DNA of 24,497 nt from a virus. Each line of letters begins with the position of its first letter. Positions within the stretch are counted from its first letter, which is position 1. The notes under the pieces were generated by a model that was given only the letters and a program-made list of their open reading frames with translations, was not told the origin of the DNA and did not search any database. Shown here in pieces: positions 1,377-24,497 of this stretch. The stretch lies in IMG/VR virus record IMGVR_UViG_3300036832_000864, positions 1-24,497 of that record; one strand, given 5' to 3'. The translations under genes were made by a program, and so were the position numbers.

Positions 1377-1595
1377 GTGTGGTGGCAACCGCCCTGCCTC
1401 TATCGAACTGTTGTCGTCAATCTGATCGCTGACCCTGAGTCCGCGATTCAAGGCGTGCTGTGGCGCAGCCGCGGGTCGTGGCTGACGATTCGCAAGGCGT
1501 CGATTCTGAAACCGAACCTCGCGCCGATGGCGGTCGATGGCGATGTGATCGTCCACCGCGCCAATGTGAATTTTGTGCAGGTCTTGCCCGAATGA
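1377..1595 (+). CDS. Small LSm/Hfq-like beta protein upstream of portal
   Basis: A 72-aa frame bounded by an in-frame stop at 1368, so GTG 1377 is the only plausible start. Its stop overlaps the portal start as ATGA, which supports both starts. The sequence alternates as five beta strands: TVVVNLI, AIQGVLWR, WLTIRKASIL, GDVIVHRA and VNFVQVLP. The G-x-L in strand 2 and the final VDGDVIVHRANVNFVQV are reminiscent of Sm1 and Sm2 motifs. Short proteins of this kind are common directly before portal genes in GC-rich phages, from memory, with no assigned role. The LSm fold is a prediction by eye. Confidence 0.6.
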   Translation: MWWQPPCLYRTVVVNLIADPESAIQGVLWRSRGSWLTIRKASILKPNLAPMAVDGDVIVHRANVNFVQVLPE

Positions 1596-3061
1596 TCGTC
1601 CAGAGCAAGGGCACACTCAAAAACATCGGGACACCGGCGGCCTCGTTGCCGGACTACGGCAATAGCTACGGCCTGCATCACCTGACGCCCTACACCTATG
1701 GGGCGCTCTATCGCACCCAACCCAACGTCCGCACGGTGGTGGATTTCATCGCGCGCAACATTGCGCAGGTCGCGCCGCTCGCGTACCGCCGCGTGTCTGA
1801 TCTGGATCGCGAGCGCTTGCCCGATCACGAACTGGTGCAATGGCTCGGCAATCCGAACCCGGGCACGTGTCGCTATCGCCTGTTCGAGAGTTTGATGCAA
1901 GACCTCGGCGTGTACTTCAACGCCTACTGGCTGAAGATCCGCCAGGACTCCGGAACGATGGGCCTCGTGCGGCTCTCGCCGGAACACGTGATGCCGACCG
2001 GCTGGATTTTTCCGACCGGCTATTTGTGGGCCACGCCTGACGGCCAAGTCGTGCCGCTGACGCTGGCCGATGTCGTGCACTTCAACGGCTACGACCCGGC
2101 CGATCCGGTGATGGGCATCTCGCCGCTGGAAACCCTGCGCCAAGTGTTGGCCGAAGAGTCCGCATCGACGGCGTACCGCCGCGCCTACTGGACGAATTCC
2201 GCGCGCCTCGAAGGCGTGATCACCCGGCCGAAGGATGCGCCGAAGTGGACCCCGGAACAGAAACAGGCTTTCCGCGAACAGTGGAAGGGTCGTTTCGCGG
2301 GCACCACCAACGCCGGACAGACCGCCGTTCTCGAGGACGGCATGACGTTCACGGCCACATCCTATTCGGCGCGCGAATCGGAATTCGTGCTGGCGCGGAA
2401 ACTCACGCGCGAAGAGGTCGCGGCGCAATACCACGTGCCGCAACCGATGGTCGGCATCCTCGACCACGCCACGTTTTCGAATATCAAAGAGCAACACAAA
2501 CAGTTGTACCAGGACTGTCTGGGGCCGTGGTTCGAATGGATTCAAGAGGAAATCGAAAAACAACTGCTGCCCGATTGCGACGACACCGACAACGTGTACC
2601 TCGAATTCAACATCGCCGACAAAATGAAGGGCTCTTTCGAGGAGCAAGCGGCCTCGCTGAAAGCGCTAGTCGGGCGCCCGATCATGACGGCGAACGAAGG
2701 GCGCGCGCGGCTGAACCTGCCGTCGATTCAGAACGATCCCACCGCCGACGAACTGGCGCTGCCGCTCAACACCACCGGCGGTCCGTCTGACGCCTTCGAT
2801 GGCGGGCGGATTCCGCCGACGCCTGCGGAGAGTGCGCAGATTGCGCCGATTCTCGATGCGACCCGCGCCCGCCAGATTGATCGCTTGCAGCGATTGCCCG
2901 CGAGTGATCGCGCGTCCGCGTTGTTTGCCGGGTTTGATCGATGGCAGGCGGAACTGGTCGCGGACCTGACGCCCATCGTCGGACCCGAGCGCGCGGCGGC
3001 CTTGGCGCTCGAAGCCAACGTCAGCACCGCGATGACCCTCGCCGGATTGGAGCACGCCTGA
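1592..3061 (+). CDS. Phage portal protein (HK97/lambda-type siphovirus family)
   Basis: The portal forms the dodecameric ring at one capsid vertex through which DNA enters and leaves, and to which terminase and connector dock. ATG 1592 gives 489 aa, a normal length; the frame extends left to 1460 but that would bury the whole upstream gene. The early segment TQPNVRTVVDFIARNIAQV is typical of the HK97 portal family, as is the clip/stem region with LTREEVAAQYHVPQPMVGI and the following NIKEQHKQLYQDCLGPW. The C-terminal 90 residues are less conserved and rich in Arg and Ala. The stop overlaps the protease start (TGATG). High confidence from sequence pattern and gene order. Confidence 0.95.
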   Translation: MIVQSKGTLKNIGTPAASLPDYGNSYGLHHLTPYTYGALYRTQPNVRTVVDFIARNIAQVAPLAYRRVSDLDRERLPDHELVQWLGNPNPGTCRYRLFESLMQDLGVYFNAYWLKIRQDSGTMGLVRLSPEHVMPTGWIFPTGYLWATPDGQVVPLTLADVVHFNGYDPADPVMGISPLETLRQVLAEESASTAYRRAYWTNSARLEGVITRPKDAPKWTPEQKQAFREQWKGRFAGTTNAGQTAVLEDGMTFTATSYSARESEFVLARKLTREEVAAQYHVPQPMVGILDHATFSNIKEQHKQLYQDCLGPWFEWIQEEIEKQLLPDCDDTDNVYLEFNIADKMKGSFEEQAASLKALVGRPIMTANEGRARLNLPSIQNDPTADELALPLNTTGGPSDAFDGGRIPPTPAESAQIAPILDATRARQIDRLQRLPASDRASALFAGFDRWQAELVADLTPIVGPERAAALALEANVSTAMTLAGLEHA

Positions 3062-4047
3062 TGCCTCGCCACCACGCTTTAGATCGCGTCGTTGCCATGG
3101 CGCTCGAACCGTGGGCCATCACGAAACCGATGCTCGGGATCGTCGCGGGCATTCTGGCGCGCCGGATGGCGGGCACCGAAGCGGCCGACAGCCAGGTCGT
3201 CACGCGGCCGGTCAGCGGCTCGCTGCCGACCGGCACCGGCGTGGCCGTGATTCCGATTCACGGCGTGATCGCGCCGCGCATGAATCTGCTCTCCGACATC
3301 AGCGGCGGCGCCACGTTCGAAGAAGCGACCAGTCAGCTTCGCGATGCGGTGGCCGCGGCCGACGTCGGCACCATCGTGCTCGATTGGGATTCGCCGGGCG
3401 GCTCGGTCGCGGGCGCCACCGAATTTGCGCGGGAGGTGCTGCGCGCGCGCGCGGTCAAGCCCGTGATTTCGCAAGCGAATTATCTCATGTGCTCCGCCGC
3501 GTTCTGGGCGGGCGCCTGCGCCACGGAAGTGGTCGCCGCGCCATCGGCGATGGTTGGGTCGGTCGGCGTCTACACCATCCATGAGGATCTGTCGAAAGCG
3601 CTGGATCAACTCGGCGTGAAGCTCACGTACATTTCCGCGGGCAAATTCAAAGTGGACGGCAACGATGCCGAACCGCTGTCCGACACCGCGCGCGCCCACA
3701 TGCAAAGCATCGTCGATGCGATGTACACGCGATTCGTGGGCGACGTCGCACTCGGGCGCGGCCTGACGCCCGCCGCGGTCGCGAACGGCTATGGCCAGGG
3801 CGAAGCGGTCACCGCTGACGAAGCGCTCAGCCTGCACATGGTGGATCGCATCGCCACCCTTGACGACACCGTGGCGCGCGCGCTGACCACGCCGCCGTCT
3901 GTGACGGCCGCGGCGCGGGCGCGCGCCCTATCGACAACCGCTGTCCTCGACACGCCGCAGGAGCCTGCGAAGGCCACCGGCCAGGATCGACGGCGCGCGG
4001 TCAGGCAACTCGAAACGCAATTTCTGGAACACCTGTTCCACCCGTAG
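3061..4047 (+). CDS. S49-family (SppA-like) phage prohead protease
   Basis: A 328-aa serine peptidase that would cleave scaffold or capsid delta domain during head maturation. ATG 3061 overlaps the portal stop. Visible motifs are VAVIPIHGVI (first core strand), DSPGG (oxyanion region), then CSAAFW with candidate nucleophile Ser145, and SAGKFKVDG with candidate general base Lys197. The Ser-Lys distance of 52 equals that of the B. subtilis SppA pair Ser147/Lys199, so K197 rather than K195 is preferred. A C-terminal Ala/Arg-rich tail of about 55 residues ends QLETQFLEHLFHP and may act as a scaffold-like or capsid-binding segment. No separate scaffold gene is present, which fits a delta domain on the capsid protein. 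Confidence 0.9.
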   Translation: MPRHHALDRVVAMALEPWAITKPMLGIVAGILARRMAGTEAADSQVVTRPVSGSLPTGTGVAVIPIHGVIAPRMNLLSDISGGATFEEATSQLRDAVAAADVGTIVLDWDSPGGSVAGATEFAREVLRARAVKPVISQANYLMCSAAFWAGACATEVVAAPSAMVGSVGVYTIHEDLSKALDQLGVKLTYISAGKFKVDGNDAEPLSDTARAHMQSIVDAMYTRFVGDVALGRGLTPAAVANGYGQGEAVTADEALSLHMVDRIATLDDTVARALTTPPSVTAAARARALSTTAVLDTPQEPAKATGQDRRRAVRQLETQFLEHLFHP

Positions 4048-4055
4048 GAGTTTCT

Positions 4056-5321
4056 ATGGTTCCCAACGCGACGACGCTTGAGCAAACGCTCAACACGCGC
4101 ACCGCCGAAGGCTTGGCCCTTGTGAAAAAGACGGCCGCGCTCTGCGAATCGGAAGATCGCGAAATGACGGCCGAGGAACGCGCCGCCATCAACGCTATCG
4201 GCGACGACTGCAAAACGATTGGCGCGAAGCTGGCGCGCGTCAAGGGCGATCAGGCGCTCATCTCCGACTTCGAACGGCTCGCGGTCGAAGGCAAGGGACG
4301 GCCGGTCACCGCGGCCGCCGCCGCGACGGCGAAGGGTCCGCGCCTCTCACTCGGGCAACAGTTCGTGCAGTCGGAAGGCTACGACTTTTTCCGCAACGGC
4401 GGGCATCGTAGCGGCTCCTCGTGGCGATCCCCGAGTGTGGAACTGATCGACCATGGCCGCTTTCGGGCCGACACCCTGACGGAAGATCCGACGTCGGGCG
4501 GCTCGCTGATCGTGCCGCAGTACCTCCCCGGCATCCTGCCGATTCTATTCAAGCGGCTGGTGGTCGCGGACCTGATGGCGTCGGGCCTGACGGATTCGAA
4601 CGCGATCATCTACATGCAGGAAACCAACTGGACCAGCGCCGCGGCGCCGGTGCTCGAAGGCGGCGACAAGCCCGAGTCCAAACTGACGTTCGCGTCGGTC
4701 ACCGACACCGTGCGGAAGATCGCGCACTGGCTGCCGGTGTCGGAAGAAATGTTGGAAGACGTCGCGCAGATCGCGAGCTACATCGACGCGCGCCTGCGGC
4801 TCGGTGTGCAGATCGAAGAGGAAGATCAGTTGCTCAACGGGACCGGCACCGCGCCGGAACTGCTCGGGCTGCTGCTGCGCCCGGGACTGGCGGCACCGTA
4901 TGCGCGCGTGGCGCCCGTGACCAACTCCGATGCGATCCTCACCCAGATGATGACGATTTTCGCGACGTCCTTCCTGATGCCGGATGGCATCGTGATGAAC
5001 CCCGCGAACTGGGCGGCGACCATCCTGACCAAGACGACGACGGGCGAATATTTGACGGCCGGGCCGTTTTCGCCCATTCAAACGCCGACCATCTGGGGCG
5101 TGCCGGTCGCGGTCACCCCGTCCGCGGTCGCGGGCACGGCCCTCGTCGGCGCGTTCAAACAGGGCGCGCAGGTCTTCCGCAAGGGCGGCATCCGCGTCGA
5201 GGCGTCGAATTCGCACGTCGATTTTTTCATCAAAAACTTGGTCGCGATTCGCGCCGAGGAACGGCTCGCGCTGGCCGTCTATCGGCCGGGCGCGTTCGGT
5301 GAAGTGACCGGACTCGCCTAA
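4056..5321 (+). CDS. Major capsid protein, HK97 fold
   Basis: A 421-aa protein that builds the icosahedral head. TAGGAG at 4045-4050 sits five bases before ATG 4056 and is one of the strongest ribosome sites in the window, fitting a very abundant product. Residues about 1-130 are helical and charged, like an HK97 delta domain removed by the protease. After the GGSLIVPQYLPGIL segment the HK97 signature regions follow: KLTFASVTDTVRKIAHWLPV, SEEMLED, then YIDARLRLGVQIEEEDQLL and NGTGTAPELLGLL, and the C-terminal FRKGGIRVEASNSHVDFF. Length and gene order match the family. The exact cleavage point cannot be read from sequence. Confidence 0.95.
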   Translation: MVPNATTLEQTLNTRTAEGLALVKKTAALCESEDREMTAEERAAINAIGDDCKTIGAKLARVKGDQALISDFERLAVEGKGRPVTAAAAATAKGPRLSLGQQFVQSEGYDFFRNGGHRSGSSWRSPSVELIDHGRFRADTLTEDPTSGGSLIVPQYLPGILPILFKRLVVADLMASGLTDSNAIIYMQETNWTSAAAPVLEGGDKPESKLTFASVTDTVRKIAHWLPVSEEMLEDVAQIASYIDARLRLGVQIEEEDQLLNGTGTAPELLGLLLRPGLAAPYARVAPVTNSDAILTQMMTIFATSFLMPDGIVMNPANWAATILTKTTTGEYLTAGPFSPIQTPTIWGVPVAVTPSAVAGTALVGAFKQGAQVFRKGGIRVEASNSHVDFFIKNLVAIRAEERLALAVYRPGAFGEVTGLA

Positions 5322-7864: not shown

Positions 7865-8599
7865 ATGAAGTATCCGATCCCCGTCGCGATTCTCTGCGGT
7901 CTGCTCGGCTCGACGCTCGGCGTCTGGGCGCAGAACGAAATCTCGCGGTTTCAAAAAGTCGTCATCACCTCGACCGATCCCGATGCGCTGATCGTCGGCG
8001 GCCAACCTGTCTCGGGCGGCGGCAGTACACCGAGCTGCGGGCCGAATCAGTTCGTGCAGAGTTCCACCACGTGCGGCAAAACGCTGCTCGCCGCGAACCC
8101 GACCGCGACGACGCCGCTGTTGACCGTGGGCTATACGAACAATCCGACGCTGTTTCAGGTCTACACCGACCCGAATCCGAACGATGACGGCATCCGCGTT
8201 TTTGGTGGTGTGTATTTCGGCGGCAGCACCGGCAGGCAACTCGCCGTCGAATCGCCGGGTAATGACATCGGCGGGTTTTTCTCCATCACGCAAAACAACG
8301 AGATCATGAACGATCTCACGCGGCCCACGCTGACGTCGGGCTTCGGCGCGGGCGCGGCGTTGCAGGCGCACGCGACCGGCAGCCTCGGCCGCGTCACGCT
8401 GGGCACCGCCCCGGGCGCGACGTTGGTACTGGATACCAGCTTGTCATCGAGCGTCCCTGGCCCCGTGTGCATCTTTCAAAACGAAACGACCGGCACGTTG
8501 TTAGGCCATACGCAAAGCACGGGCACGATCACCATTACGGGCACGTTCACGGCAGGCGACCTGATCACGTGGATGTGCTGGGACATGCGCGGACCATGA
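7865..8599 (+). CDS. Protein with N-terminal signal peptide in the tail module
   Basis: ATG 7865 gives 244 aa; the frame is open 12 codons to the left but those overlap the previous gene and would hide the signal. Residues 1-22 look like a signal peptide: Lys2, a hydrophobic core (PVAILCGLLGSTLGV), then VWA before Gln23 as a signal peptidase I site. The rest is Gly, Thr and Ser rich, with strand-like repeats (LVGGQPVSGGG, PTATTPLLTVGYTNNPTL, VYFGGSTGRQLAV) as in beta-helical or fibre proteins, and several cysteines that could pair outside the cytoplasm. The stop is in an ATGA overlap with the glycosyltransferase. Either a secreted surface protein or a tail adhesin; function unknown. Confidence 0.65.
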   Translation: MKYPIPVAILCGLLGSTLGVWAQNEISRFQKVVITSTDPDALIVGGQPVSGGGSTPSCGPNQFVQSSTTCGKTLLAANPTATTPLLTVGYTNNPTLFQVYTDPNPNDDGIRVFGGVYFGGSTGRQLAVESPGNDIGGFFSITQNNEIMNDLTRPTLTSGFGAGAALQAHATGSLGRVTLGTAPGATLVLDTSLSSSVPGPVCIFQNETTGTLLGHTQSTGTITITGTFTAGDLITWMCWDMRGP

Positions 8600-9648
8600 A
8601 AGTCTTGGTCGTTTCACCGGGCGCCGCATGGTCCACCGCCGACGTCGATGCCGGTCTGCGCTACGGCCTCGCCGCGCATGGCGTCCAAGTGGTGCGCTTC
8701 CGCCTGACCGAACGCATCGAGCGCTCGCGCAGCCTGCTCTATGGCGCATGGCGCAAAGCCAAACGCACGCGGCCCGACCTGAAACGGCCGACCGCGGGCG
8801 ACGTCTTTTACGAAGCGGGCGAACGGGCGGTGACGATGGCGCTGCGGCACGAGGTCGATGCGGTGATCGCCGTCTCCGCGATGTTTCTGCATCCCGACGT
8901 GGTGATTATGATGCGCCGCGCCGGACTGCGCGTGGTCGTCCTGTTCACCGAATCGCCCTATGACCTCGCGAGCGAGGTCGCCGTGGCCAAACTGGTGACC
9001 GGCTGCTGGACCAACGAATCGAGCGCCCTGCCCAACTTCCGCGCGGTCAATTCGCACGCGGGGTTCCTGCCGTGCGCGTGGCATCCCGAGATCCACACGC
9101 CCGAGCCGCAAGCGCTTGATGCCACCGTCGATGCCCACGACGTCGTTTTTGTCGGGTCGGGCTGGGCCGACCGCGTGGCGTGGTTCGAACGCCAGGACTG
9201 GACCGGCATCGATCTCGGGCTCTACGGCCACTGGCCCACGGTCGGGCGCCGTCACCGATTGGCGCGCTACGTCCGCCATGGCGCGGTCGATAACGCGCGC
9301 ACCGCGGCGCTGTATCGGCGCGCGACACTGGGGCTCAACCTCTATCGAGACACGGGCGGCGCGCCGGCCGAATGTCTGAACCCTCGGGCCTACGAACTGG
9401 CGGCGTGCGGTGTGGTGCACTTCAGTTCCCCGCGCGCCGAAGTGACCGCGCGCTTCGGTGACTTGGTGCCCATCGTGCCGGACGGGATCGCCAGCGGCCT
9501 CATTCGCGACTGGCTTGCAGATGCAGACCGGCGGGCCGCGGTTCGCGCGGCCTTGCCAGCGACGGTATCGGACGCGTCGTGGATTCTCCGCGCGCGCACG
9601 GTGATCGGCGATTTACAAACCCTGCTGCGGGCCACCGCCGCAGCGTAG
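8596..9648 (+). CDS. Glycosyltransferase, GT-B fold, CgeB/DUF3880-like
   Basis: A 350-aa protein starting at ATG 8596 in an ATGA overlap. The N-terminal Rossmann half starts MKVLVVSPGAAWS; the C-terminal half has VVFVGSGWADRVAWF, then ALYRRATLGLNLYRDTGG and AECLNPRAYELAACGVVHF. That last part is the nucleotide-sugar-binding motif of the family 1 type found in CgeB-like proteins. It would transfer a sugar from a nucleotide-sugar donor; acceptor unknown. Placed between the tail terminator and major tail protein, it may decorate virion proteins or the secreted protein encoded just before it. Glycosylation of virion proteins is known in some actinobacterial phages. Base composition matches the neighbours, so no sign of recent transfer. 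Confidence 0.85.
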   Translation: MKVLVVSPGAAWSTADVDAGLRYGLAAHGVQVVRFRLTERIERSRSLLYGAWRKAKRTRPDLKRPTAGDVFYEAGERAVTMALRHEVDAVIAVSAMFLHPDVVIMMRRAGLRVVVLFTESPYDLASEVAVAKLVTGCWTNESSALPNFRAVNSHAGFLPCAWHPEIHTPEPQALDATVDAHDVVFVGSGWADRVAWFERQDWTGIDLGLYGHWPTVGRRHRLARYVRHGAVDNARTAALYRRATLGLNLYRDTGGAPAECLNPRAYELAACGVVHFSSPRAEVTARFGDLVPIVPDGIASGLIRDWLADADRRAAVRAALPATVSDASWILRARTVIGDLQTLLRATAAA

Positions 9649-18082: not shown

Positions 18083-18643
18083 ATGCCTATTACACGCACC
18101 GCGATGATCGATGACGACGGGTCGGGACTGACCGGCACCATCATTGACAACCCGTGGAAAACCGAACTGTATAACCAGATCGACGCGGCCGACGTCGCCG
18201 CGAATAGCACGCAACTCCTCCACGCCGCGGCCGGTAATACGACGCTGACGGGCGGCCAGAACCTAGACCTAGTATCGATCAGCGGATTAACCGCCCTCGA
18301 TTGGCTCGAAGTGTTTTGGCACCTCCAAAATGGCAGTGTGGCGAACGCCAATCCGGTCAAGTTCGCGACCACCAACGAGTACATCGGGCAACTCGTCCCC
18401 TCTATCGCGGCGGGCACCGTCGCGCAGGGACACTCCATCATTCGTCAAGGGGTGAGCCAGCCGCTCGCCTGCGGCTGTCTGTCCGAAGGCATGATGGCCG
18501 CCGCGCGCGTGGATAGTTTTCAGTACGCTGCCATCACGGTCGCGTGGACGGCCACTTGGACGCTAGCGCTGCAAGCCCTCGGGTTGCCCGCTGGGGGTTC
18601 CTTGAACTGGGCGTGGAACGTCTATCGCCGCAAAGGGCAATAG
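18083..18643 (+). CDS. Tail appendage/fibre protein
   Basis: A 186-aa protein with AGAGGAA at 18071-18077 before ATG 18083. The start MPITRTAMIDDDGSGLTGTI followed by NPWKTELYNQID is, from memory, common at the N-terminus of phage tail fibre and appendage proteins. The rest is strand-rich (LDLVSISGLTALDWLEVFWH and FQYAAITVAWTATWTLALQA) and could form a receptor-binding or trimer domain. Position after the hub protein fits a distal tail component. No enzyme motif was seen. Confidence 0.65.
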   Translation: MPITRTAMIDDDGSGLTGTIIDNPWKTELYNQIDAADVAANSTQLLHAAAGNTTLTGGQNLDLVSISGLTALDWLEVFWHLQNGSVANANPVKFATTNEYIGQLVPSIAAGTVAQGHSIIRQGVSQPLACGCLSEGMMAAARVDSFQYAAITVAWTATWTLALQALGLPAGGSLNWAWNVYRRKGQ

Positions 18644-18651
18644 GAGGGCAC

Positions 18652-18810
18652 ATGGACCCGTTGTTAGTCGTGATCGTCGTGCTGTTGGTTCTCTGGATTG
18701 CAGGCGTCGGGCTCGGTGGCGTCTATCTCGGCGGCGGTTTGATCCACATTCTGATCGTGCTGGTGATCGTGCTGGTGTTGGTGCGCCTGCTGACAGGCCG
18801 CCATCTGTGA
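18652..18810 (+). CDS. Small two-helix membrane protein, DUF5670/Lmo0937-like
   Basis: A 52-aa protein with one of the best ribosome sites in the window (TAGGAGGG, 18641-18648), three bases before ATG 18652. The sequence is two hydrophobic helices (LLVVIVVLLVLWIAGV and LIHILIVLVIVLVLVRLL) joined by a glycine-rich loop. The GGLIHxLLVxxxxxLxxRLL ending resembles the Lmo0937/DUF5670 family of small bacterial membrane proteins of unknown function. In a phage late operon next to a possible hydrolase, a holin role is also possible. The stop overlaps the next start as GTGA. Confidence 0.75.
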   Translation: MDPLLVVIVVLLVLWIAGVGLGGVYLGGGLIHILIVLVIVLVLVRLLTGRHL

Positions 18811-19145
18811 ACAAACGGACATATAGAAAAGAACGCACCATGAAGGAAAAGGGACACCCGAAGGCCAGTCACAACGAAAAGGTCACCGTGCTGCGGGTTG
18901 ATGACGGCGAACCGTTCATCGAGTCGGCGCAACTGATCACCAACGGCGACGGCTCGGTGAGTTTCCTGCTCGACAGCGGCGAGTATGCAGGCCAAGACCC
19001 CGAGCACTACGGCGAGCGCGTCGATGGTGAGAACAAGCAATATCAACGCGCGACCGTCAGCGGCAACACGGTGACGTTCCTGCCGCATCCGGACTACCCG
19101 GCCTACGTGTATCTCTTCGGCGCCGGCAAGGTGTACCCAGTATGA
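18807..19145 (+). CDS. Hypothetical beta-rich protein
   Basis: GTG 18807 overlaps the previous stop (GTGA) and gives 112 aa; ATG 18840 in the same frame (101 aa) is an alternative, and neither has a strong ribosome site. The N-terminus is basic (RTYRKERTMKEKGHPK). From about residue 27 the sequence suggests a small beta domain: KVTVLRVDDGEPFIES, GSVSFLLDSGEYAG, QYQRATVSGNTVTFLP and YVYLFGAGKVYPV. I do not recognise the family. It sits between a membrane protein and a hydrolase-like protein and is coupled to both, so a shared function is possible. Confidence 0.65.
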   Translation: MNKRTYRKERTMKEKGHPKASHNEKVTVLRVDDGEPFIESAQLITNGDGSVSFLLDSGEYAGQDPEHYGERVDGENKQYQRATVSGNTVTFLPHPDYPAYVYLFGAGKVYPV

Positions 19146-20206
19146 GCGCCGCGGCCATCGCCGCTTGCATGGGCCGCGCGACCACACCCGCGCCGCCGAT
19201 CATCGTGCGCGCCCCGCTGCCGCTGCCACTGCCGCGCGCAGATCGCGACGGCGTGCCCTGGGCGACCACGCTGCCGTGGGAGGGCGGCGTGGCGCCCATC
19301 GACCGCGACTACTGCCGCGGCGATGCGTGGGGCGTCGAAATGCCGGGCGCGCCGATGGTGCCCGGCGTCAGCGGGCGCTATCCCGAGCGCATCCTCTCGT
19401 GGTTTCTGGATCGCTATCCCGACAAATTCCAGCACGAGTACCTGACCAAGTACGCGGGCTTCGGCTACACCCACTTCTATTTGTCGCCGCCCGATTCCAT
19501 TCAAGGCTTCGGGCGCACGCTGGCGCAGTTCAAAGACACCTGCAAGCTGGTGAAACAGTACGTGCCGTATGTCGGCCTGAACCTCGCGTCGAAGCTCTAT
19601 CAGCCGCGCGACATGACCGCCGACGCGTTTCAGGCGTATGTTGATCCGCTGCTCGATGCGCTGCTCGATGTCGGTGACGAATTCGTGCCCGCGTGGGAAT
19701 ACGATCTGTGGAACATCCCCGGCCCGAATGCGGTCACGATTCACAAACACGTCGGCGACCGCGCGCACGCCGCGGGCAAAACGTGCTGGCAGCACTACTC
19801 CGCGCACGTGACGTCATGGTTTGCCGATGGCGATTCGCGCGGGCGCTTCGGCTGGTATGACGACCTGGGCCACTCCACCAACGGGATCAACTATCAAGGC
19901 GATCCCAACTGGACGACGCAAGACGCGTGCGACCGCGCGGTCGATACGTTATGGCAGTTCGCGCAGCAAGGTTACGGTCACAAGTTCCGGTACTGGGAAG
20001 ACCTCGCCACGCTGATGTTCGATGGCAACCCGCAGTCGGATTTCATCAACGGCGTGTGGGTGCCGCGCGGTCCGGCGATGACACCCGAGGATGCGAACTG
20101 CCGCGGCTGGTATCTCGCGTGCACGTTCGACAACGTGAAAGGGACCGACGGCAAAGTATGGGGCTTCGGCAACGGCGGCCGACACCCGGACGGGTCACGG
20201 ATCTGA
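19142..20206 (+). CDS. Glycoside-hydrolase-like protein (possible TIM barrel)
   Basis: A 354-aa protein starting in an ATGA overlap. After a Pro-rich N-terminus of about 35 residues, the sequence has alternating strands and helices as in a TIM barrel: YTHFYLSPPDS, YVPYVGLNLAS, EFVPAWEYDLWN, KTCWQHYSAHVT, GWYDDLGHSTNGINYQG and HKFRYWEDLATLMFD. Glu186 (AWEYD) and Glu286 (YWEDL), each near the end of a predicted strand and 100 residues apart, would suit an acid/base and nucleophile pair as in clan GH-A. I do not recognise a named family, so enzyme activity is inference. It could be a lysin, depolymerase or receptor-binding protein. Confidence 0.6.
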   Translation: MSAAAIAACMGRATTPAPPIIVRAPLPLPLPRADRDGVPWATTLPWEGGVAPIDRDYCRGDAWGVEMPGAPMVPGVSGRYPERILSWFLDRYPDKFQHEYLTKYAGFGYTHFYLSPPDSIQGFGRTLAQFKDTCKLVKQYVPYVGLNLASKLYQPRDMTADAFQAYVDPLLDALLDVGDEFVPAWEYDLWNIPGPNAVTIHKHVGDRAHAAGKTCWQHYSAHVTSWFADGDSRGRFGWYDDLGHSTNGINYQGDPNWTTQDACDRAVDTLWQFAQQGYGHKFRYWEDLATLMFDGNPQSDFINGVWVPRGPAMTPEDANCRGWYLACTFDNVKGTDGKVWGFGNGGRHPDGSRI

Positions 20207-20400
20207 TCGCGGGTCTATTGCTGGCGATGCTGGCGAGCGGCTGCGGGCTGGAAAGCGATCTGAAACATCGCCTCCACCTGCGGTCGCTGGTCTGCGCCGA
20301 TGGCTGGCCGGTGAAACTGTTACAGGACTCGCGCTGCCCGGACGGGATCTGCGGCTACACCTGCGCACCAGGACGATGGGCCGATGTCGTCACACCTTGA
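20158..20400 (+). CDS. Small cysteine-rich lipoprotein
   Basis: ATG 20158 gives 80 aa; the frame continues left but only this start yields a proper signal: basic residues (MGLRQRRPTPGR), a hydrophobic core (LIAGLLLAMLA), then ASGC with Cys29 as the lipidation site. The residue at -3 is Ala, less usual than Leu. The mature part is about 52 residues with Cys46, 60, 65 and 69, and ends GRWADVVTP. The start lies 49 bases inside the preceding gene in another frame. It could be an outer-membrane spanin-like protein or a surface-exclusion lipoprotein. The stop overlaps the convergent methyltransferase gene by 11 bases. Confidence 0.6.
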   Translation: MGLRQRRPTPGRVTDLIAGLLLAMLASGCGLESDLKHRLHLRSLVCADGWPVKLLQDSRCPDGICGYTCAPGRWADVVTP

Positions 20401-20890
20401 ATCCGACGTAGAACAAATCGCCGCGCGCCGTGGTCGCCAGATGTGTCCCGCATAATCCGGCAGCCGCGGCCCACGTCGCCACCTCCGCGCCAGAACAATT
20501 CCGGTAAAACTCACCCGGCCGCAACGGGCCACCATCGCGCGCCGAATGCGGTGCCCTGCCCGTGGTGGCACAAGTCACGATCACGATCCCATCGGTCGCG
20601 ATCATCTGCCCGATTTGCGCAAAGATCGCCGCGGCCTCTGCGGTGTGCTCCAAGACTTCGCAACAGACCACCGTGTGAACTTTGACCGCGGGCACGAATG
20701 CCGCGGCATCGGCGACGACATCGACGCCGGGCCCCGCGATCAGATCGACTCCGATATACGGCGGCGCGCAGGCGGCGAACAAGCCGCGGACGCTGCCGTT
20801 GATGTCGCGCGATCCGAGTTCGATCACCGGGCCGTGTGGCTGATAGCAAGCCACCGCCCATTGGACAAACGCAAAGGCTTCCGCGTGCAT
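20390..20890 (-). CDS. Class I SAM-dependent methyltransferase
   Basis: A 166-aa protein with the fold pattern of Methyltransf_11-type enzymes. Motif I is VIELGSRDINGSVR (residues about 22-35), Asp49 in IGVDL would bind the ribose, DAAAF follows near 61-65, and VVCCEVLEHTAEAAAIF is the typical motif IV with the EHT/EH element. Substrate is unknown; there is no DPPY/NPPY or PC motif, so a DNA base methylase is not supported. The start ATG overlaps the large terminase stop by one base (TGATG). The C-terminal end runs 11 bases into the convergent lipoprotein gene. Confidence 0.8.
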   Translation of the reverse strand: MHAEAFAFVQWAVACYQPHGPVIELGSRDINGSVRGLFAACAPPYIGVDLIAGPGVDVVADAAAFVPAVKVHTVVCCEVLEHTAEAAAIFAQIGQMIATDGIVIVTCATTGRAPHSARDGGPLRPGEFYRNCSGAEVATWAAAAGLCGTHLATTARGDLFYVGFKV

Positions 20891-22566
20891 CAGGCCACCA
20901 CCATGTCAGGATCTTCCGCCGCTTCGGGCGCGGTCGTGCGGATGGCGAGGTTCCACGCAATCGCCAGCCCCACAATCGGATCGATGCGCCCGCGGCTGCG
21001 CTTTTTGACCGGATAGATATTGTCTTTCCCGTCGCGCTGCACCACCACGTTGCCCGCGCACCAGAGCATCAACGGATCGCGCTCCGCATCGACTTCGCCC
21101 GCGAGCACGGCCGCTTCGAGGGCCAGACAGCCGCTCGACATCCCCGGATACGATTGCGGCACTTCGAGAATTTGATCGACGTCGAAGCCATCATCGCGCG
21201 TCAGTTGCGTGATCAACTGGTCGGCGTGCCACGGGTCGAAGCCCACGCGCACAATCGTCGCGTCCTGGCGCAGCTCCCTGAGCGCCGCGCGGATGACTTG
21301 GTGATCCACACGCGTGCCCGGCACCGGCAACAGGTAGTGCGCCGCGGCCCATTCTTCGTAGGGCGCCCGGTCGCGCCGCGCCCGCTCTTTCATCGTCTCG
21401 GCAGGCGTCCACACCCAACGCCGCACACACCAGCGCGCCCGCGTCGGCGTGGGCGGAAACAACGCGATCATCGCCGTCAGGTCCAACTTGGCCGCGAGGT
21501 CGATGCCAACAAAGCACGGATCACCCGGCAGTAAATCGAGCGCATCGGTTTGCCCTTTGCGCCAGCCATCGAGCGACAGCCACGGCTGTAACGTGTTCAC
21601 CCAGAGATTCAAATGCTTCTGTTGATAGGCGGCGGCGGCGCCCGTGATGCCGAGCGCTTTGATCACTTTCGTGCGCAGGTCTTCAGGGTTCACCGAGATC
21701 CCGTAATTCGGATTCGCTTTGCGCGCCGTGGTGTCGAGCGTCCAATCATCCTCGGGGTCGGCGTGCGCGATGAACGCGAAATAGGTTTCATCGACCAACG
21801 CGCGCTCGAGAATTTGACAGGCGTAATTGTGTTCGTGGCCGCACGGCGAGTTCGGGTCATCGCCCGCGGTCGTGATTTTGAAGATCACCGGCTGGCGGCG
21901 CGCGCCCGTCGCGGTTTCGAGCACATCGATCATCCCGCGCGTTTTGTATTTGTGAATCTCGTCCAAGCTGATGAAATGCGGGTTGAGCCCGTCCATCGAA
22001 TCTTCGTCGGCGCCCAGCGGTTCGAGTTTCGAACTGGTGACCTCCCGAAAGAGGTTCGATTTCAGCACCGCGATCCGCGTGCGCAGGCCGCTCGATACCA
22101 CCAGTTGTTTCGCGTCCCCGAACACGATCCGCGCCTGATCTTTTTTGGTCGCGGCGCAGTAGCCCTCGGCCCCGGGCTCGCCATCGAAAAACGTGACATA
22201 CACCGCGACGACGGCATCTTCGAGGGACTTCCCTTGCTTGCGCGGTAGTTCGTTATACGAATGCCGGAAGCGCCGATAGCCCGTTTCGCAGTGGACCCAG
22301 CCGAACAGCGAGCCGAGCCGGAACACCTGATGCGGTTGCCAGCGAATGTACTGGCCCGCCCACTCGCCTTTGTAGTGTTTCAGTTGTTCGCCGAAGCGGA
22401 GAAACCGATTGACCAGATCGAGGTCGAGGCGAAACGGAAACGCGCGCGTGGCTTCGCGACTGCGATCAAACTCGTGACGGGCGCACGCAAGGCGATGGAA
22501 TTTGCCCGCGGGCACGTGCCCACGTAACACCGTTCGAGCGTACCCATCCATCTCATGTCGCGCCAC
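20890..22566 (-). CDS. terL: Terminase large subunit
   Basis: A 558-aa ATPase-nuclease that drives DNA into the prohead and cuts it. GTG at 22564-22566 is chosen because AGGAAAGG (plus-strand 22573-22580) lies six bases upstream; an ATG five codons later is the alternative. Around residues 105-114 is a Walker A-like LPRKQGKS (the lysine-containing deviant P-loop of this family), around 198-203 Walker B FISLDE, and the nuclease half has GIDLAAKLDLTA near 354, FDPWHADQ near 444 and RIDPIVGLAIAW near 528, each with an acidic metal ligand. The pattern matches the HK97 gp2-type (Terminase_1) family. It is read opposite to the portal, which is unusual. Confidence 0.95.
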   Translation of the reverse strand: MARHEMDGYARTVLRGHVPAGKFHRLACARHEFDRSREATRAFPFRLDLDLVNRFLRFGEQLKHYKGEWAGQYIRWQPHQVFRLGSLFGWVHCETGYRRFRHSYNELPRKQGKSLEDAVVAVYVTFFDGEPGAEGYCAATKKDQARIVFGDAKQLVVSSGLRTRIAVLKSNLFREVTSSKLEPLGADEDSMDGLNPHFISLDEIHKYKTRGMIDVLETATGARRQPVIFKITTAGDDPNSPCGHEHNYACQILERALVDETYFAFIAHADPEDDWTLDTTARKANPNYGISVNPEDLRTKVIKALGITGAAAAYQQKHLNLWVNTLQPWLSLDGWRKGQTDALDLLPGDPCFVGIDLAAKLDLTAMIALFPPTPTRARWCVRRWVWTPAETMKERARRDRAPYEEWAAAHYLLPVPGTRVDHQVIRAALRELRQDATIVRVGFDPWHADQLITQLTRDDGFDVDQILEVPQSYPGMSSGCLALEAAVLAGEVDAERDPLMLWCAGNVVVQRDGKDNIYPVKKRSRGRIDPIVGLAIAWNLAIRTTAPEAAEDPDMVVA

Positions 22567-22583
22567 GCGGCGCCTTTCCTGGG

Positions 22584-23084
22584 TTAGTGATCGTGTCGCG
22601 GCGATGCCGCCGGCGGCGGCGCATCGAATTCACCGAACGGGTCGGCGTCGGGCGCGGTGACGGTGACGCGGGATCGGCTCGATGGCGTCAACCCGAGCTC
22701 CGGCCAGAGTTTCGTACAGCCCGACAAGGCCTTCGTCGCAATCGCGAGATACGGATTCGGAATCGGATACCCGTTCGGCGTTTGAATGACCATGCCCGAC
22801 GTGCGGACGCGATCCATCGCATCGAGGTACCGGGCCCATTCGAGACAGAGCGCCAGCAGCGCGGCGCGGTCGGCATCGCTGATCTGTCGGGCTTTGTGCA
22901 GCATGGGCGCCAACCGCTGCCATTCGGCCAGCGCCGTGGGCACCGCGGCCAGTTCGGGCGGGTCCGCGCGCCACGTGTGGTCGGACGTGGGCGGTTGTGG
23001 TTCGTCGTGGTTCATGGCCCGCTTGCCCGGGTTCCCTTCCAACCGGCGGCGCCATGAGGGTAACGGCTTGCGCCCTGCGCCCAT
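22584..23084 (-). CDS. terS: Terminase small subunit, P27 family
   Basis: A 166-aa protein that recognises phage DNA and loads the large subunit. The start ATG at 23082-23084 follows the previous stop by two bases; the frame is open further upstream but that part belongs to the other gene. The N-terminus MGAGRKPLPSWRRRLEGNPG followed by KR is the typical P27 start (GRKP-x-P-x(n)-LxGNPGKR). The rest has helices TALAEWQRLAPMLHKAR and DADRAALLALCLEWARYLD, then the conserved TPNGYPIPNPYLAIATKALS, ending with GLTPSSRSRV, all typical of P27. A 17-base gap precedes terL. Confidence 0.92.
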   Translation of the reverse strand: MGAGRKPLPSWRRRLEGNPGKRAMNHDEPQPPTSDHTWRADPPELAAVPTALAEWQRLAPMLHKARQISDADRAALLALCLEWARYLDAMDRVRTSGMVIQTPNGYPIPNPYLAIATKALSGCTKLWPELGLTPSSRSRVTVTAPDADPFGEFDAPPPAASPRHDH

Positions 23085-23086
23085 GG

Positions 23087-23830
23087 TTAAAACAATCCCG
23101 CCACCGGCCGCAGCGCGATCCGCCGCGGCGTCGGATACTCGCGGACGATGGCGCCATCGAGTTCGATGCCCATCTCGGTGCGCGGCGCCGCCGACTGTTT
23201 GAAAAAGAACGCCGTGCCCTGGCGCGTGGCCTTCTGCCGCAGCTCGCGCACCCACGCATGATCCATCGGCCGGAAGTCTGGCCCAGATTCGCCGCCGACG
23301 ATCAGCCAATCGATCTTGCGGAGGTCTAACGACGGCATCGGCCCGAGCACAGGTTCGGCCGAAATGAACCGTACCGCGGCCGGAATCTCGCGCAAGCGGT
23401 CGGCGCGGTACGTGTGCCGGTCGTTTTCGATGCTCACACCGAGCCAGACGTTGGGATACCCGCGGCCCCAATCGGCGGGCAAATGGTCGGCAATGCGATC
23501 ATCGCGCTTCGTGAGGATCTGAAAATGCAGATTCGGGCAGGCGCGGACGACGGCCCACGCCTCGGCGCGCCACGCGTCCGCGGTCGGATGGAACCAATCG
23601 GACCATGAACACGTGAACACGCGCTCGATGCGCTTCGCGGCCGCGGCCTCGCGCTGCCACTTGGCGGGCTGGCCCCACGTTTTCGTCCGGACCACCACGG
23701 TCGGGTCTTGGCCGTAGCGCTCCTGCGCCGTGAACATATAGCAATGCGCGCAGCCCGGCGACACTTTGTCGCAGCCGCGCCACGGGTTCCACGTGCGTTC
23801 GGTCCACGCGATGATCGTTTGTTCGCTCAC
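23087..23830 (-). CDS. Gp37/Gp68 family (DUF5131) three-cysteine protein
   Basis: A 247-aa protein starting at GTG in a GTGA overlap with the upstream gene. The N-terminus TWNPWRGCDKVSPGCAHCY is the hallmark of phage Gp37/Gp68 proteins, with Cys20, Cys27 and Cys30 as CX6CX2C. The rest shows FTCSWSDWFHPTADAWR, LTKRDDRIADHLP, NVWLGVSIENDRHTYRADRL and DWLIVGGESGPDFRPMD, all typical of the family. The three cysteines and the barrel-like strand order suggest a radical-SAM-like iron-sulfur enzyme, which has not been proven as far as I know. Its place beside the terminase genes may be just operon membership. Confidence 0.9.
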   Translation of the reverse strand: MSEQTIIAWTERTWNPWRGCDKVSPGCAHCYMFTAQERYGQDPTVVVRTKTWGQPAKWQREAAAAKRIERVFTCSWSDWFHPTADAWRAEAWAVVRACPNLHFQILTKRDDRIADHLPADWGRGYPNVWLGVSIENDRHTYRADRLREIPAAVRFISAEPVLGPMPSLDLRKIDWLIVGGESGPDFRPMDHAWVRELRQKATRQGTAFFFKQSAAPRTEMGIELDGAIVREYPTPRRIALRPVAGLF

Positions 23831-24199: not shown

Positions 24200-24261
24200 C
24201 GGCGGCTTTCGCGGGCGGCGGCCGAGCGGCGGCGGGCGGCCGGTCCTGGGTTCGCGGCGGG

Positions 24262-24497
24262 CGGGCGGCTGGGCGGCTGGCGGGCGGCTGGGCGGGCTTG
24301 CGGGGCGGCTGGCGGGCGGCGAGCGCTGGCGGGCGGCTGGCGGGGCTTGGCGGGCGGCTGGGCGGCTGGCGGCGGCTGGGCGGGCTTGCGGGGCGGCTGG
24401 CGGGCGGCGAGCGCTGGCGGGCGGCTGGCGGGGCTTGGCGGGCGGCTGGGCGGCTGGCGGCGGCTGGGCGGGCTTGCGGGGCGGCTGGCGGGCGGCG
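24262..24497. repeat. 88-bp GC-rich tandem repeat at the window end
   Basis: Bases 24321-24408 and 24409-24496 are identical 88-bp copies; an upstream partial copy differs by a one-base indel in a GGCGG run. Each unit is built from shorter GGCGGGCGGCTGG-like pieces. 88 is not a multiple of three, so a repeat protein is unlikely. The plus strand is almost pure G, C and T, with G-runs able to form G-quadruplexes. I see no gene from 24106 to 24497. Perfect identity at a contig end also fits an assembly artefact. Confidence 0.85.

Follow-up and report, generated by a model that had tools for sequence, protein, structure and literature searches.

The window analysed here, 24,497 nucleotides, is the whole of a virus record (IMGVR_UViG_3300036832_000864), linear and incomplete, from a soil phage whose genes for terminase, portal, major capsid and tape measure mark it as an HK97-type tailed phage. 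Behind the tail genes lie four forward-strand genes at 18652-20400 (Table 1), all in the reading frames that the initial annotation had assigned to a coupled unit in this place. TAGGAGGGCAC precedes the first of them, and the start of the third overlaps the stop of the second (ATGA). Locus L002 retains the beta-rich protein (87.5% across the 40 aa available), the enzyme (85%) and the lipoprotein (67%) in the same order, and because order and similarity are both kept the series is not a product of chance: it is real, coupled and conserved. The last tail-region gene before it has counterparts at the same position in L008 (60.8% over 51 aa), G034 and, weakly, G009. Two records, L094 and L004, share identical probes or proteins with the window and overlap it; L004 and G031 are the window's own phage and not independent relatives, and gene calls in the relatives were made with a custom script, not a standard caller.

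Table 1. Genes of the four-gene module and the tail-region gene preceding it (positions in the window)
Feature	Position	Strand	Basis
Final gene of the tail region, 186 aa, ahead of the module (for context)	18083..18643	+	Relatives in the same place
Two-helix membrane protein, 52 aa, DUF5670/lmo0937 type	18652..18810	+	Pfam PF18919
Beta-rich partner, 101 aa, probably a glycan-binding module	18840..19145	+	Identity to G008/L193; profile comparison
TIM-barrel protein, 354 aa, putative GH-A-like enzyme hydrolysing polysaccharide; Glu186 and Glu286 are candidate catalytic residues	19142..20206	+	AlphaFold2 (AF2), VIA-align
Small Cys-rich lipoprotein, CTG start inferred	20203..20400	+	12-row alignment; profile hits

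Elsewhere in the window, the terminase genes (20890-23090, reverse strand) stand behind the tail genes and are inverted relative to 1460-5321 (forward strand), whereas TerL lies upstream of the portal gene on the same strand in G008, G009, G034 and G044; this difference in order and strand points to a rearrangement in the window phage. The right end of the record (24260-24497) is a very G-rich 88-bp tandem repeat of 2.7 copies at 99%. A glycosyltransferase-like gene, so labelled by eye, sits within the head-tail operon (8596-9648) and has kin in seven of the 14 clustered contigs, counting the window and its own extension, while the reverse-strand gene at 23087-23830 encodes a radical-SAM-like protein (TIGR04471, 51.5 bits, far below the cut-off of 355). 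QueC-, GTP cyclohydrolase I- and PTPS-type genes in G045, a relative lacking the enzyme, suggest that its DNA carries modified guanines. The bacterial genomes with the closest TerL relatives (L066, L067) gave no host call, since these relatives lie on short MAG contigs on which, by eye, all genes are phage-like.

The first gene product matches Pfam family PF18919 (E 3.3e-6; 27.5 bits, above the gathering cut-off of 23.5), confirming its membership in a family common on bacterial chromosomes, and scores 28.1 bits against NCBIfam model NF033488, below the cut-off of 30, for which reason we call it a DUF5670 protein and not the lmo0937 equivalog. The earlier description of a two-helix membrane protein is borne out by this match and by two hydrophobic segments discerned by eye, and TAGGAGGGCAC lies ahead of the start, where that description had a very strong ribosome site. 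The name DUF5670 was not found in the literature searched; lmo0937 does occur there.

The fourth gene encodes a small lipoprotein, as anticipated, with the lipobox LASGC followed by a conserved Cys-rich C-DG-PV-C-GICGYTC-RW pattern in a 12-row alignment. Its reading frame has neither ATG nor GTG at the expected start; we infer initiation at CTG 20203, since the homologues in L003 and L007 begin with an ATG over the enzyme stop where the window has CTG. The family occurs at 49 viral loci, many of them without the enzyme within 4 kb on each side, and profile hits are found in loci with the enzyme. Tail operons of soil phages commonly have it as their closing gene, often between tail genes and a gene that looks integrase-like by eye.

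The 354-aa product of the third gene has no match in Pfam or PHROG and only one of chance level in NCBIfam, none of the three revealing a known muralytic domain, nor has it a significant sequence match in the PDB; across the four proteins of the series, nothing in the family libraries exceeded a cut-off except DUF5670. It is likewise without a match in 50,697 cultured-phage records, and a scan of 84,980 bacterial and archaeal genomes for its family gave 66 stretches that fit the pattern and none that was confirmed. The family comprises seven close loci and, by profile scan, 35 viral loci, with a distant homologue in L193 (profile E 7.7e-13) in which both glutamates discussed below are kept, as judged by eye.

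An AlphaFold2 model of this protein, built on a 33-sequence alignment, is a TIM barrel (pLDDT 87.8, pTM 0.87), in agreement with the hydrolase-like barrel first proposed from the sequence. The Foldseek comparison suggested at that time did return TIM barrels, though as a mixed list (epimerases, dehydroquinases, GH18 and others) that was sorted only by VIA-align, in which the best 50 of 1000 re-aligned PDB chains are glycosidase-type barrels (GH140, GH53, GH5, GH1). The top row is the GH140 structure 8t9w (Z 16.6, 241 residues, 3.2 Å), and GH53 is represented by 7osk (Z 16.3) and 1ur0 (Z 16.2). Over the four families Z ranges from 15.4 to 16.6 across 241-269 residues at 7-14% identity, values that among TIM barrels are no proof of membership in clan GH-A. 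The best 50 also include beta-klotho, which we take to be a glycosidase-like but inactive protein. Among the viral fold matches are phage proteins that carry a GH5 annotation.

Seven residues (E186, E286, H111, H218, W226, Y251 and Q252) are invariant in all 33 aligned enzymes. Glu186 follows strand 180-182 and Glu286 follows strand 281-285, the fourth and seventh by our own strand count, and in clan GH-A the catalytic glutamates stand where strands four and seven end. The residue before the catalytic acid is usually Asn in that clan; here the candidate acid is preceded by Trp185. We regard Glu186 and Glu286 as a candidate catalytic pair of GH-A type. The protein resembles the clan GH-A families (GH53 galactanase, GH140, GH5, GH1) in its TIM barrel and in two invariant glutamates 100 residues apart and differs from them in its low identity and in having no Pfam GH match, so that 'GH-A-like' refers here to predicted fold and residues only; as sequence-profile comparison linked it to no GH family, it is not filed in any. 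It looks like a member of an unnamed and seemingly new family of sugar-polymer-cutting enzymes. A non-catalytic protein that binds a glycan receptor with a GH-like barrel would suit a position beside tail genes and the fact that no activity is known, but the invariance of the glutamate pair and of several other polar and aromatic residues in 33 of 33 sequences leads us to favour catalysis and to consider mere binding very improbable.

The reading frame of the beta-rich protein can open at GTG 18807 or ATG 18840 (stop at 19145), the latter being favoured because homologues suggest it. Identity is 78% to the protein of G008 and 69% to that of L193, where members of its own family are again paired with the enzyme. 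In L005 and L008 its slot is taken by CBM92-like proteins; L006 also has such a protein, but with a further small gene in between. The proteins of these three loci have a G-DG-V-L-x-x-G-x-Y-V-S-type repeat like that of CBM92 (CpCBM92A/B) and match the CBM92 structures 7zoh and 7zoi with E 5.8e-5 and 1.7e-4, values summed over two weak repeats, the single-domain E-values being weak (1.3 and 3.7). CBM92 is a three-repeat beta-trefoil with WExF motifs and a domain of roughly 150 aa, whereas the partners have about 100 aa. The window protein is itself short for three CBM92 repeats, and its link to the family is a profile match to the partners of L005, L006 and L008 (P 5.4e-4, probability only 30%). 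CBM92 domains are reported to bind beta-glucans (PMC11039641). Taken at the level of sequence comparison, the 101-aa partner is probably a glycan-binding module. Three further leads on this protein were set aside, namely its AlphaFold2 model (pLDDT 49), a low-scoring match to the STIV turret of an unrelated virus (E 0.073 in Pfam, 0.011 in the PDB) and homology to the fused N-terminal domain described next (probability 12%).

Pairing of the enzyme with a small upstream gene is widespread. At many loci the enzyme gene is directly preceded by one of 91-136 aa, often with an overlap of a few bases, and the proteins encoded there are of several kinds. In L017-L024, L026 and L032 the partner is replaced by an N-terminal extension of the enzyme of about 100 aa followed by a Pro-rich linker; L025, L028, L030 and L031 are exceptions with a longer gene upstream. 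In the underlying tally the enzyme is missing for L007, L024 and L029 although tblastn finds it, pairing with the lipoprotein is biased upward by L210, L217, L220 and L239, which entered through the scan for that protein, and two pairs of loci (L036/L040, L026/L027) are near-duplicates. Runs of His, often beside Asp or Glu, start several of the fused N-terminal domains (L019, L020, L023 and others) and also open the G008 partner (L046:11989-12321).

Tail genes precede the module in the window, L017, L018, L021-L023, L032, L034, L038 and others, whereas it stands beside RusA/DUF1376-type early genes in L005, L006, L008 and L016 (labels partly by eye) and after a portal-type gene, recognised by eye, in L035 and L041; this difference in place between relatives indicates that it moves as a unit. 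Several relatives have a beta-helix gene downstream of the enzyme (G009 matches Pfam Beta_helix with E 1.5e-8), L002 and L003 carry a different type of gene, of 453-454 aa, after the lipoprotein, and in the podovirus-like G011 and G012 the enzyme comes after a gene that we take to be tail-appendage-like. GH-like proteins behind the tail genes of G044 and G045, which lack the enzyme, were rejected as candidates, sharing a motif only and having no significant PDB sequence match.

As to catalysis, substrate, delivery and timing, we posit that the beta-rich protein and the TIM barrel form a two-part carbohydrate-active module, in which the barrel would cut a beta-linked polysaccharide by a two-glutamate mechanism of GH-A type, for which Glu186 and Glu286 are the candidates, and the partner, or the fused N-terminal domain in other phages, would keep it on the glycan. 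Because the enzyme is placed with the tail genes and has no evident signal peptide, it would most likely act from the virion or after release by lysis, on the host capsule, an exopolysaccharide or a surrounding biofilm polymer; the early-gene (L005, L006, L008, L016) and portal (L035, L041) settings are not what one would expect of a fixed tail spike. The other two products, the lipoprotein and the DUF5670 protein, may be accessory proteins of the envelope whose genes share a place at the operon end. The best reading of the locus is a polysaccharide hydrolase aided by a glycan-binding protein, and we hold it with moderate confidence. A precedent is gp095 of Erwinia phage S6, a GH5 protein reported to degrade a cellulose substrate, with cellulose as the first receptor (PMC9544554); the likeness lies in a phage-encoded barrel of clan GH-A type, an extra N-terminal part and a proposed action on host exopolysaccharide. 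The 354-aa protein differs in having no sequence similarity to a named GH family and in having its partner encoded by a separate gene.

The order proposed by the initial annotation was holin, unknown, muralytic enzyme and outer spanin, that is, an unconventional lysis cassette in which the 52-aa or another small membrane protein would be the holin, the barrel an endolysin of a new kind and the lipoprotein a spanin. The series does resemble holin-endolysin-spanin cassettes in that genes for a small membrane protein, a hydrolase-like enzyme and a lipoprotein are coupled to one another and come after the tail genes. Canonical lysis genes lie behind the tail or between RusA and TerS, and the slots of the module match these; membrane proteins of 45-65 aa are frequent near the enzyme in relatives, and the lipoprotein signal is of o-spanin type by pattern only (lipobox and Cys).

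The lysin families tried were Phage_lysozyme, Amidase_2, GH19, Peptidase_M15_3, SLT and GH108. The claim that the window holds no standard endolysin stands for Amidase_2, Peptidase_M15_3 and SLT, which gave no match in this incomplete record; GH19 and GH108 also gave none, here or in any of 38 contigs, yet their controls were silent and these two results are uninformative. Among contigs with the enzyme, Phage_lysozyme was found in none of 26 and Amidase_2 in none of 27 (window included); Peptidase_M15_3 was absent from all 38 contigs, 19 of which carry the enzyme, and SLT occurred in one of the 38, G050, which does not carry it. The 19 enzyme-bearing contigs, window included, gave no lysin of the families tried, two of the six being uninformative, which is in keeping with a cassette. 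Pfam scans of 39 genes of G008, 49 of G009 and 161 further representatives (of 242 clusters of at least 85 aa) gave no lysin among the families listed. The scans also took in 78 of 87 clusters of at least 95 aa confined to seven further contigs, namely six without the enzyme and G031, and six genes of L193. Where more than 25 families matched, the best 25 of 28, 41, 47 and 64 are covered, so that weak lysin matches could lie beyond them.

The same absence extends to relatives without the enzyme. All 19 MCP relatives of at least 32 kb (G032-G050, 32-44 kb) lack it, and 18 of them give no lysin match either; in these relatives Amidase_2 and Phage_lysozyme gave nothing (none of the 24 records searched for each), Peptidase_M15_3 likewise nothing, and SLT a match in G050 alone. 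A missing lysin therefore does not single out the enzyme and loses its value as a pointer to a cassette: as far as the families tried go, it characterises the lineage. What speaks most for lysis is the SLT-type gene of G050 (167 aa), two genes behind the long tail protein and so in the slot that the module has in the window. A 167-aa neighbour of the enzyme in L193 was considered as a podovirus lysin and dropped, PHROG giving its function as not assigned.

Other observations speak against a muralytic role. The barrel aligns best with polysaccharide-cleaving glycosidases, and we know of no muralytic family in clan GH-A; the partners of three relatives point to glucan binding, and the neighbours too point to polysaccharide. 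A holin role for the 52-aa protein, which belongs to a general chromosomal membrane family, is weakened by the occurrence of DUF5670 near the enzyme in just one locus besides the window, L239, and weakly there (62% over 29 aa, BLAST E 9.3). The lipoprotein has no PHROG match, and no inner-membrane spanin, whose gene usually overlaps that of its outer-membrane mate, was seen by eye among the window genes. We consider a lysis cassette unlikely and the module more likely to be aimed at host surface polysaccharide than at bursting the cell. A broader variant, in which the whole soil-phage lineage lyses without a known endolysin and the GH-A-like glycosidase with its partner here cuts an envelope polymer outside the range of known lysins or, as a first for its clan, peptidoglycan, strikes us as quite improbable.

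The module could instead be auxiliary or serve lysogenic conversion: the enzyme would feed or modify the host through breakdown of environmental (plant or fungal) polysaccharide, and the lysogen's envelope would be altered by the lipoprotein and the DUF5670 protein. Its patchy distribution and changing position would fit, as would the frequent place of the lipoprotein next to an integrase-like gene, and activity has been demonstrated for a GH5 endomannanase from a soil virus (PMC6786970). However, the enzyme and its partner have no evident signal peptide, the genome scan confirmed no bacterial homologue, unlike what a recently acquired metabolic gene would show, and in the window the module is tightly coupled behind tail genes, so that we regard this explanation, too, as a doubtful one.

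The large relatives without a recognisable lysin raise the question of how these phages leave their hosts. The enzyme belongs to a phage-borne family of which neither the cultured-phage records nor the scanned genomes gave a member, and it comes with a conserved, probably sugar-binding partner. If the preferred reading of a polysaccharide hydrolase with a glycan-binding helper holds, the family could guide the study of exopolysaccharides by which uncultured soil bacteria are protected.
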